From the NCBI GenBank assembly GCA_947471365.1, contig CANIWQ010000007.1:1-52896 (forward strand): a DNA stretch of 52,896 bases, written 5' to 3'. Position numbers and translations under genes: made by a program. This DNA comes from Gemmatimonadota bacterium. GTDB lineage: Bacteria; Gemmatimonadota; Gemmatimonadetes; Gemmatimonadales; Gemmatimonadaceae. Below, one piece after another: positions 15,212 to 18,670 of this stretch (its first letter is position 1; each line of letters begins with the position of its first letter). The notes beneath the pieces are model-generated. The model made no database searches and was not told the DNA's origin. It saw only the letters and a program-made list of their open reading frames with translations.

Positions 15212-18200
15212 ATGCTACCGCCCTCCCACGAACCCTCCGTCTTTCACGACCCCACTGGCAAACGGTGGCGGGCGATTCGGCGCGCCACCCTGATTGCCGG
15301 GGTGCTCTCGACGCTCGTCGCCCTCGGCGTGGCGGTGTTGTTCGTGATTCCGCAGACGCTGCCTCAGCTCACCGACGCCTCAAAGAAGATTGGCGCCGCC
15401 CCCAGTGCGGCCGCCCGGCTCGCTGACCCGAAGCTCGCGGCCCGCCAGCACGCCGCGCACCAGCGGCTCATGGCGGCCCTCGCGCAGAACCCCGCCCCGA
15501 CCGCCACACGCCCCGAATCGCTGCGCGTGGAGAAGAACCGCATCTCAGAAAAACCCGTCGCGCGCGCCGCGAACGCGAATGTGGACCGACCCAAGATTGT
15601 CGCCGGGTTCTTTGTCAACTGGAACGACAACTCACTCGAAAGTCTCCGCGCCCACGCACGAGATCTGGATTGGGTGATCGCCGAATGGGCCTTCACCCAA
15701 TCGACCTCGGACTCCCTCAAGCTGTCGCCAAAGCCGCAGGCGCTGGAAATTGTGGAACGCCTGCCCGAAAAAGAACGACCGCGCATTTTCGCGATGGCCA
15801 GTAACTACGATAACGGCCTCGGTCGCTTTGATTCAACGGCGGTCATGAAACTGCTGGCTACGCCGGCGAGCCGCGAGCGCGCCGCCATTCAGCTTGTGAA
15901 TTTTGCCCAGAAATACGGGCTGGCCGGCGTCGTGGTGGACTTCGAAGAAGTGCCATACCGCATGAACGACGAGTTATTCACGTTCATGCGATTGCTCCGC
16001 GCCGGCCTCGCCCCAGGGGGACGCCTGCTCGCCGCGACCATGGCGGTGAGCGCCGACGAAGAACAGGCGCGCAAGTACGCCTCGAACTGCGACTACGTGT
16101 TCCTGATGCTCTACGACGAGCATTACGGACTCGGCGATCCGGGTCCCGTCGCGAGCCAGCGATGGTTTGAGGCCAAGACCCGACAGTTCGCGCAGTGGAT
16201 TCCGTCAAAGCAAACGATCCTCGCGCTCGGTGCCTATGGCTATCACTGGGATGATGCCGGCGGAAAACTCAACGGCCGAGAGCTGACCTTTCAGGACGCC
16301 ATCCAACTCTCACGAGAACATGGCGCGATCATTCAGCTGGACTCTGTCTCGCTAAATCCCAGACTCCACTGGACCGACCCTGACGGGACGGACCACCTCG
16401 TCTGGTTCCTTGACGGTGTCACCGCGTTCAACCAAGCGCGGTTCGGACAGCATCTGGGCGTCGCCGGCGCTGCGGTGTGGCGCTTGGGGAACGAGGACCC
16501 GTCCCTATGGAACGCCATCTCCAACGACGTGCCTTCGGCCTCGCCGAGTAGCCTCGAGGCCATGGGGCCGGGCTACGATGTGCCGTTTCTCGGCCGCGGC
16601 GACCTCCTCCGCATTGTGGCGCGCCCAACCCCCGGGCATCGACTGGTGACGTCTGATCCGATCACGGGACGCGTCACGAGCGAGACGATTACCGAAACAC
16701 CCACGCCCTGGCTCGTGCAGCGCTTTGGCGCGTCGGACTCGATGAAGATTGCGCTCAGCTTCGACGACGGCCCCGACCCGCGCTACACACCATTCATTCT
16801 TGACACGCTTCGCTCGCGCGGAGTGAAAGCCACCTTCTTCGTGCTCGGCAAACAGGCCAATGAGTACCCCGCACTGCTACGACGCATCGTGCGCGAGGGG
16901 CACGAAATCGGCAATCACACGTACACGCACCCCAACCTCGCCGAAACGACGCCGCTTGTGGCACGCCTTGAGATCGTCGCGACTGGGCGGTTGATCGAAA
17001 GCATCACTGGTCGGCGCACCGCTCTCTTCCGCCCACCCTTTTTCGGCGACTCTGATCCCACGACGGCAAACGAACTCGTGCCGATTGGCATCGCCACCGA
17101 CCTTGGCTACGTCACCACCGGCGTGACGCTGGATTCCAAAGACTGGCGGCTCACCAACCCCGATTCGATTCTCGCCAACACGCTCGACCTTCTCGGGTCC
17201 GGCAACGTCGTGTTGCTACATGACTCGGGCGGCGATCGGTCGGGCACCGTGGCAATGCTTGGCGCGCTGATTGACTCACTGAAAGCCAATGACCACCCGC
17301 TCGTACTCGTCAGCGAGCTTGCCGGCATCTCGCGCGACACCGCCATGCCCCAACTGGAGAGCACGACGTTCCTCGCGCGCATCGGCGGGATCATGGGATT
17401 CGGCGCGCTCTGGCTCTTCAACTGGCTCCTGACGTGGACCTTCCTCGTGGCGATGGCGCTCGCGCTCGCGCGCCTCGTGTTCATCATTTGTATTGCGGCA
17501 CTACAGCGGCGCTTCCACCGCGCGCCAGCCCGGGGCAGCTTCACGCCGCCCATCGCGATCATCGTACCGGCGTACAACGAAGAACGGGTCATCGTCCGCA
17601 CCATTGAGAGTCTGCTCGCGCAGGACTACACCGGGTCGTTTGAGATTGTCATCGTGGACGACGGATCACCAGACCGCACGTTCGACGTCGCGCGTGATGC
17701 GTTTGCCCTGGAGTCGCGCGTGCGCGTGATGCGCAAAGAGAACGGCGGAAAATCGAGCGCTTTGAATGTTGGCATCGCACACACGCACGCGGACATCGTC
17801 GTGTGCCTCGACGCCGACACGGAGTTCGAACCGCATACCGTGTCGGCACTCGTCGCGCCACTCGTGGACCCGAAGATGGGCGCCGTCGCCGGTAACGCGA
17901 AAGTCGGCAATCGCGTGAACCTCGTGACCCGGTGGCAGGCCCTCGAATACATCACGTCGCAGAATCTCGACCGGCGCGCGTTCGCGCTCCTCGATTGCAT
18001 CACCGTGATCCCCGGCGCCGTTGGCGCGTGGCGCCGAAGCGCGGTGGTTGAGGCGGGCGGTTTCACCAATGACACGCTCGCCGAGGATCAGGATCTCACG
18101 ATTCGCATCCGCCGACTCGGACACACGATTGGCTACGCGGAAGACGCCATTGCGTGGACCGAAGCGCCCGACACGCTCAGCGCGCTCGCCAAACAGCGGT

Positions 18201-18670
18201 TCCGGTGGTCCTTCGGCACGTTGCAATGTGCGTGGAAGCATCGCGATGCCCTGCTCCGCTCGCGCTATGGCGCGCTCGGCTGGGTGGCGCTCCCGAACAC
18301 GTGGCTGTTTCAATTGCTTCTCGCTGCGCTCTCACCGCTCGCCGATCTCGTGTTTGTCTGGTCGCTGCTCAACGTGTGGCTGACGTGGCGCGTGCATGGC
18401 GAACACTACGCGCTCACGGATCTCCGCCAGTTGATGCTCTACTACGGCGTGTTTGTGATCGTGGACTGGCTCGCGGCGCTTATTGCATTCGTCATGGAGC
18501 CCGACGAAGAAGCCGGACTCTCGTGGCTCATCATGCTCCAACGGTTCGTCTACCGCCAGCTCATGTACTCGGTGGTGTGGCGCAGCATTATTGCCGCGGT
18601 GCGCGGCGGCGTGGTTGGATGGGGCAAGCTCGACCGCAAGGCGACCGTGACTCGACCGGCCACCGGGTAG
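15212..18670 (+). CDS. Trifunctional GH18-like / polysaccharide deacetylase / GT2 glycosyltransferase
   Basis: A 1152-residue membrane protein with three enzyme-like regions. An N-terminal membrane segment (about 22-46) leads to a GH18-like domain (about 125-430) in which VVVDFEEV keeps the catalytic DxE (D243, E245) but has valine at the first conserved aspartate. A NodB deacetylase follows (about 510-690) with SFDDGPD and HTYTHP metal ligands. A membrane segment near 730-765 precedes a processive GT2 domain with VDDGS, LDADTEFE, PGAVGAWR, EDQDL and QRFRW, then further membrane helices at about 1030-1110. This order would let one protein polymerise an N-acetylhexosamine glycan on the inside and deacetylate or trim it outside. 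PgaB/PgaC-type poly-GlcNAc systems use separate proteins for these steps. The product polymer is unknown. Confidence 0.9.
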   Translation: MLPPSHEPSVFHDPTGKRWRAIRRATLIAGVLSTLVALGVAVLFVIPQTLPQLTDASKKIGAAPSAAARLADPKLAARQHAAHQRLMAALAQNPAPTATRPESLRVEKNRISEKPVARAANANVDRPKIVAGFFVNWNDNSLESLRAHARDLDWVIAEWAFTQSTSDSLKLSPKPQALEIVERLPEKERPRIFAMASNYDNGLGRFDSTAVMKLLATPASRERAAIQLVNFAQKYGLAGVVVDFEEVPYRMNDELFTFMRLLRAGLAPGGRLLAATMAVSADEEQARKYASNCDYVFLMLYDEHYGLGDPGPVASQRWFEAKTRQFAQWIPSKQTILALGAYGYHWDDAGGKLNGRELTFQDAIQLSREHGAIIQLDSVSLNPRLHWTDPDGTDHLVWFLDGVTAFNQARFGQHLGVAGAAVWRLGNEDPSLWNAISNDVPSASPSSLEAMGPGYDVPFLGRGDLLRIVARPTPGHRLVTSDPITGRVTSETITETPTPWLVQRFGASDSMKIALSFDDGPDPRYTPFILDTLRSRGVKATFFVLGKQANEYPALLRRIVREGHEIGNHTYTHPNLAETTPLVARLEIVATGRLIESITGRRTALFRPPFFGDSDPTTANELVPIGIATDLGYVTTGVTLDSKDWRLTNPDSILANTLDLLGSGNVVLLHDSGGDRSGTVAMLGALIDSLKANDHPLVLVSELAGISRDTAMPQLESTTFLARIGGIMGFGALWLFNWLLTWTFLVAMALALARLVFIICIAALQRRFHRAPARGSFTPPIAIIVPAYNEERVIVRTIESLLAQDYTGSFEIVIVDDGSPDRTFDVARDAFALESRVRVMRKENGGKSSALNVGIAHTHADIVVCLDADTEFEPHTVSALVAPLVDPKMGAVAGNAKVGNRVNLVTRWQALEYITSQNLDRRAFALLDCITVIPGAVGAWRRSAVVEAGGFTNDTLAEDQDLTIRIRRLGHTIGYAEDAIAWTEAPDTLSALAKQRFRWSFGTLQCAWKHRDALLRSRYGALGWVALPNTWLFQLLLAALSPLADLVFVWSLLNVWLTWRVHGEHYALTDLRQLMLYYGVFVIVDWLAALIAFVMEPDEEAGLSWLIMLQRFVYRQLMYSVVWRSIIAAVRGGVVGWGKLDRKATVTRPATG

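Follow-up and report, generated by a model that had tools for sequence, protein, structure and literature searches.

The nearest described arrangement to the protein analysed here, likened by description, is MatB of Streptomyces, in which a CE4 deacetylase outside the membrane and a GT2 synthase inside it share one chain; MatB is needed for a PNAG-like polymer and acts with MatA, and its PNAG product was reported from antibody and dispersin B results (PMC5972031). PgaB is a single periplasmic protein with both a deacetylase and a hydrolase activity (PMC5933820), a coupling that provides a precedent for the logic of the fusion, and PgaC depends on PgaD (PMC8461298). The three-module combination itself was tabulated in 2012 as GH18-CE4-GT2 for Acetivibrio cellulolyticus (ZP_09465738; PMC3413522), and in 2020 Sphingobacterium multivorum w15 was listed with a protein given as CE4-GH18-GT2 (PMC7065263). 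As far as these tabulated listings go, both proteins carry the same three modules in one chain, and the listings assign neither of them a function. No characterised three-domain member with a tested product was found in the open-access literature, outside which most subscription journals lie; the architecture is already known and its function apparently uncharacterised.

Gene, domain order and predicted topology

Within a 52,896-nucleotide stretch of Gemmatimonadota DNA (the window), we identified a single uninterrupted ORF with an ATG start at positions 15212-18670 on the plus strand that encodes a protein of 1152 aa. Along this ORF, Pfam placed Glyco_hydro_18 (2e-11, above the cut-off), Polysacc_deac_1 (3e-32) and Glyco_tranf_2_3 (1e-36), E-values that exclude a chance arrangement for three ordered domains, and NCBIfam agreed with Pfam that a GH18 domain is followed by a polysaccharide deacetylase of NodB type and then by a GT2 domain of the processive kind. 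The intact ORF and its GH18-CE4-GT2 order bear out the earlier note, which had described one polypeptide with a GH18-like, a NodB deacetylase and a processive GT2 domain. The GH18 domain, predicted to be extracytoplasmic, occupies positions 15587-16531 (residues 126-440, with D243, E245, MLYD 299-302 and W423). The CE4 domain at 16724-17323 (residues 505-704) carries all five motifs of a NodB-type deacetylase, namely SFDDGPD 516-522, HTYTH 569-573, RPP 607-609, DSKDW 641-645 and LLHD 668-671, which supply the catalytic Asp, the Asp-His-His metal triad, RxP, DxxDW and LxH. In the GT2 domain at 17540-18253 (residues 777-1014), the DDG, DxD, xED and QRxRW motifs of a processive synthase were located as DDGS 816-819, DAD 867-869, AED 957-959 and QRFRW 995-999; every deacetylase and GT2 catalytic motif said earlier to be intact could thus be assigned to its residues. 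All three domains lie on the plus strand and are under purifying selection, as evidenced by dN/dS values of 0.09 for GH18, about 0 for CE4 and 0.03 for GT2 against a 96% identical orthologue from another genome, and the catalytic residues are invariant in homologues of 34-96% identity from many phyla.

The AlphaFold model of the fusion, built with 46 relatives as input, had a mean pLDDT of 88 and a pTM of 0.76, and Foldseek matched its parts to GH18 enzymes (chitinase/SleL), to deacetylases of the PgdA type and to synthases of hyaluronan and cellulose. Family-averaged hydropathy gave four peaks, corresponding to TM helix 1 at 15293-15349 (residues 28-46; peak 2.38; model helix 17-45), TM helix 2 at 17438-17494 (residues 743-761; within a long model helix, 717-768), TM helix 3 at 18314-18370 (residues 1035-1053) and TM helix 4 at 18431-18487 (residues 1074-1092), all on the plus strand. 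Both tails are on average positively charged in the family (K+R 5.7 vs D+E 1.6 at the N-terminus; K+R 4.3 vs D+E 2.2 at the C-terminus), a bias that fits an in-TM-out(GH18, CE4)-TM-in(GT2)-TM-TM-in arrangement, with helix 2 running from outside to inside and both termini inside. The model by itself carries no membrane orientation, and sidedness is a prediction from hydropathy and charge bias. The fusion is accordingly predicted to have four membrane helices, an internal GT2 domain, and GH18 and CE4 domains on the outer side of the membrane. The single membrane protein envisaged earlier, with the synthase on one side and the deacetylase and hydrolase on the other, is thus supported by model, hydropathy and charge, and the deacetylase and GT2 are predicted to lie on opposite sides, not on the same side, which the earlier note would have taken as a refutation.

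Beyond what was computed directly (the domains with their motifs, the predicted topology, evidence of purifying selection and a single GT2 clade of the fusion), our preferred reading is that the protein is probably a one-polypeptide exopolysaccharide machine of the inner membrane that synthesises, secretes, deacetylates and trims a GlcNAc polymer. The cytoplasmic GT2 domain would polymerise GlcNAc, presumably from UDP-GlcNAc, and the chain would be threaded out through the fusion's own membrane helices to emerge near the CE4 domain, which may strip some of its N-acetyl groups; the GH18 domain would then cut the chain and thereby set its length or clear stalled chains.

Distribution and genomic surroundings

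A GH18-CE4-GT2 fusion is common, not rare, and is encoded by hundreds of bacteria. Relatives are encoded by at least 582 stretches of GTDB contigs; the best 80 of these mostly cover the whole protein and come from Gemmatimonadota, Acidobacteriota, Bacteroidota, Pseudomonadota, Bacillota, Armatimonadota and Verrucomicrobiota, and plasmid records add the fusion in Deinococcus, sphingomonads and Prevotella. In a Gemmatimonadota sample, 44 of 200 genomes carried it, nearly always at full length. The view of the fusion as something unusual is therefore not upheld, given its occurrence in at least eight phyla, its tabulation in 2012 and the existence of a described relative of its CE4-GT2 half, Streptomyces MatB.

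The fusion gene is the lone plus-strand gene amid minus-strand housekeeping genes, with recJ, dnaG, mutS2, yqeY and rpsU (rpsU read by eye) on one flank and genes for a HIT protein, rsmE, prmA, dnaJ and hrcA on the other. In several members of the genus, mutS2, yqeY and the fusion gene likewise follow one another in this order, and rsmE lies beyond them. Five members that have no fusion were examined with MutS2 and RsmE searches, used in place of a YqeY search that gave 0 matches and had no positive control. In four of them the mutS2-rsmE interval holds genes that by eye resemble sdhABC (loci L153, L154, L155 and L156), and in the fifth it is merely short. The fusion is therefore an accessory gene that occupies a fixed site. 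Within the window, neither an export nor a regulatory gene lies beside it, and its neighbours (rpsU, yqeY, the HIT gene and rsmE) include no small PgaD/IcaD partner; the statement that the gene stands alone, without export or regulatory partners, was confirmed by housekeeping neighbours on both sides. Upstream of the gene there was no Rfam match to an RNA element, and a promoter scan gave nothing above chance. The Gemmatimonadota lineage is diderm. Elsewhere in the genome, no PgaA-like porin was detected at or above the cut-off; candidate TPR porins of this kind were rejected as weak TPR matches of a kind also seen in the controls, and one Wza-like export protein is encoded on an unlinked contig.

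The search for other fusions and their neighbours proposed earlier thus yielded many fusions, and no polymer-export partner recurs beside the gene in distant relatives. The only widely shared neighbour among 67 relatives was a homologous multi-TM protein at 17 loci, in 15 of them encoded upstream of the fusion gene and divergently from it, for which the single copy scanned gave no Pfam match. These loci are nearly all from Acidobacteria, and by eye the protein resembles lipid-linked-sugar GT-C transferases; its gene lies just upstream on the minus strand at L043, L048, L058, L062, L068, L073, L074, L077, L079, L082, L085, L094, L101, L104 and L105. Two plasmid-borne relatives have a gene directly 3' of the fusion gene: in Sulfitobacter (L113:7559-10096) it overlaps by a few bases and encodes a DUF3131 protein, possibly a partner, and in Deinococcus (L110:8447-9982) it encodes a diguanylate cyclase, hinting at c-di-GMP control of the fusion in that lineage.

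Candidate products and the role of the GH18 domain

The two domains that would build and modify the polymer point to different families. The GT2 domain scored 176.7 bits against the PgaC/IcaA PNAG synthase equivalog TIGR03937 (cut-off 422.3) and 113.5 bits against the NodC chitooligosaccharide synthase equivalog TIGR04242 (cut-off 550); it falls below both cut-offs, so the product is not readable from the GT2 family. By profile, it is nearer to PgaC/IcaA (177-196 bits) than to NodC (127 bits). In the GT2 tree, 28 fusion proteins formed one group (support 96/91), separate from the PgaC/IcaA clade and more distant from NodC; its nearest rows were plasmid-borne CE4-GT2 proteins of Kocuria and Streptomyces, and the deep placements are tentative, given the long NodC and BcsA branches and a bootstrap short of full convergence. 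A Kocuria 'chitinase' beside the CE4-GT2 gene was considered as a split fusion and dropped, as it gave no match to the family's GH18 profile. The CE4 domain scored 140-154 bits with NodB profiles vs 12-16 bits with IcaB and PgaB; NodB is thus the nearest of the three, although the score against the NodB equivalog TIGR04243 was 115 bits vs a cut-off of 240. With a NodB-like CE4 domain and a PgaC/IcaA-like GT2 domain, the linkage cannot be told from sequence.

We give an even chance to a chitosan-like product with beta-1,4 linkages, either a chain or an oligosaccharide, made in the manner of NodC and NodB and trimmed by a chitinase-type GH18 domain. The NodB/PgdA type of the CE4 domain, with its full motif set, and the closeness of the GH18 domain to chitinases and SleL/YdhD favour such a product, whereas the GT2 domain lies far under the NodC cut-off and branches nearer to PgaC. 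Its most far-reaching form, a single-gene beta-1,4 chitosan factory in which one protein makes, secretes, partly deacetylates and sizes the polymer in soil and aquatic bacteria of many phyla, is offered tentatively and seems rather doubtful. A beta-1,6, dPNAG-like product of a synthase of the Pga/Ica/Mat kind, in which the GH18 domain would take over from the PgaB hydrolase in trimming dPNAG, is a serious possibility that we rate somewhat below even. It draws on the GT2 profile scores and on the actinomycete CE4-GT2 neighbours in the tree, since MatB is reported to make PNAG (PMC5972031), but it is opposed by the NodB/PgdA-type CE4 domain and by the position of the GT2 domain outside the Pga/Ica clade and under the PgaC cut-off. 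It is further opposed by the GH18 family, whose enzymes are known for acting on beta-1,4 GlcNAc bonds.

The GH18 domain scored 44.6 bits with Pfam (cut-off 29.6), and its TIM-barrel gave a TM-score of 0.85 (by target length) to 5jh8. Its motif reads A-G-V-V-V-D243-F-E245, in which the DxE of DxxDxDxE is kept, as the earlier note had it; that note's loss of the first Asp alone needs correction, since the first and second Asp are both absent. Every one of the homologues compared (93/93) has D243 and E245, M299 and D302 are conserved at 98% and W423 nearly invariant, so that the catalytic Glu and the MxYD motif are both present, and dN/dS values between orthologues (0.09 and 0.17) indicate purifying selection like that on CE4 and GT2. 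Because alignments show the first Asp to be absent as well from the closest GH18 proteins of known structure (a chitinase of Chromobacterium, YdhD and SleL) and the DxE is invariant, the loss looks like a trait of the subgroup and not decay. One exception among the relatives was noted on a Sulfitobacter indolifex plasmid (L113:4296-7562), where the three-domain layout is kept and LDAS replaces VDFE, so that this GH18 domain has neither the catalytic Glu nor the YD Asp; the substitutions suggest a binding-only role there, and hydrolysis would then not be essential in every member of the fusion family. For the family at large, a non-catalytic GH18 module that binds the polymer and guides it to the deacetylase is unlikely, because the two missing motif Asp and the Sulfitobacter member speak for it but the invariant DxE, the near-invariant M299, D302 and W423, the solved relatives that likewise have no first Asp, and the known lytic activity of SleL speak against it.

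Significance and comparison with known systems

If one polypeptide suffices, the fusion, in our preferred reading as a synthesis-to-trimming machine, would offer a simple one-gene system for studying the coupling of synthesis, deacetylation and chain-length control, and a widespread exopolysaccharide would be missed by pga/ica searches. The surprise is lessened by an architecture that is common and already listed in genome papers (2012, 2020).

Among the known systems, SleL/YdhD-type GH18 proteins belong to the same subgroup and have the same missing first motif Asp, but are spore-associated enzymes with no synthase fused. NodB and NodC, which form the Nod-factor backbone, likewise pair a NodB-type deacetylase with a processive GT2, but they are encoded by separate genes with no hydrolase, and the fusion misses their NCBIfam cut-offs. 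In E. coli, PgaB and PgaC likewise place deacetylase and hydrolase outside and GT2 inside, but they are separate proteins with a hydrolase of another family and a CE4 of another type (12 bits), and they need PgaD and PgaA. Since MatB works with MatA and PgaC depends on PgaD, the fusion may need a partner too. MatB has no GH18 described and works with MatA, whereas the fusion includes a GH18 domain and sits among housekeeping neighbours; in predicted topology, however, the fusion shares with MatB an outside CE4 domain joined by a TM helix to an inside GT2 domain.
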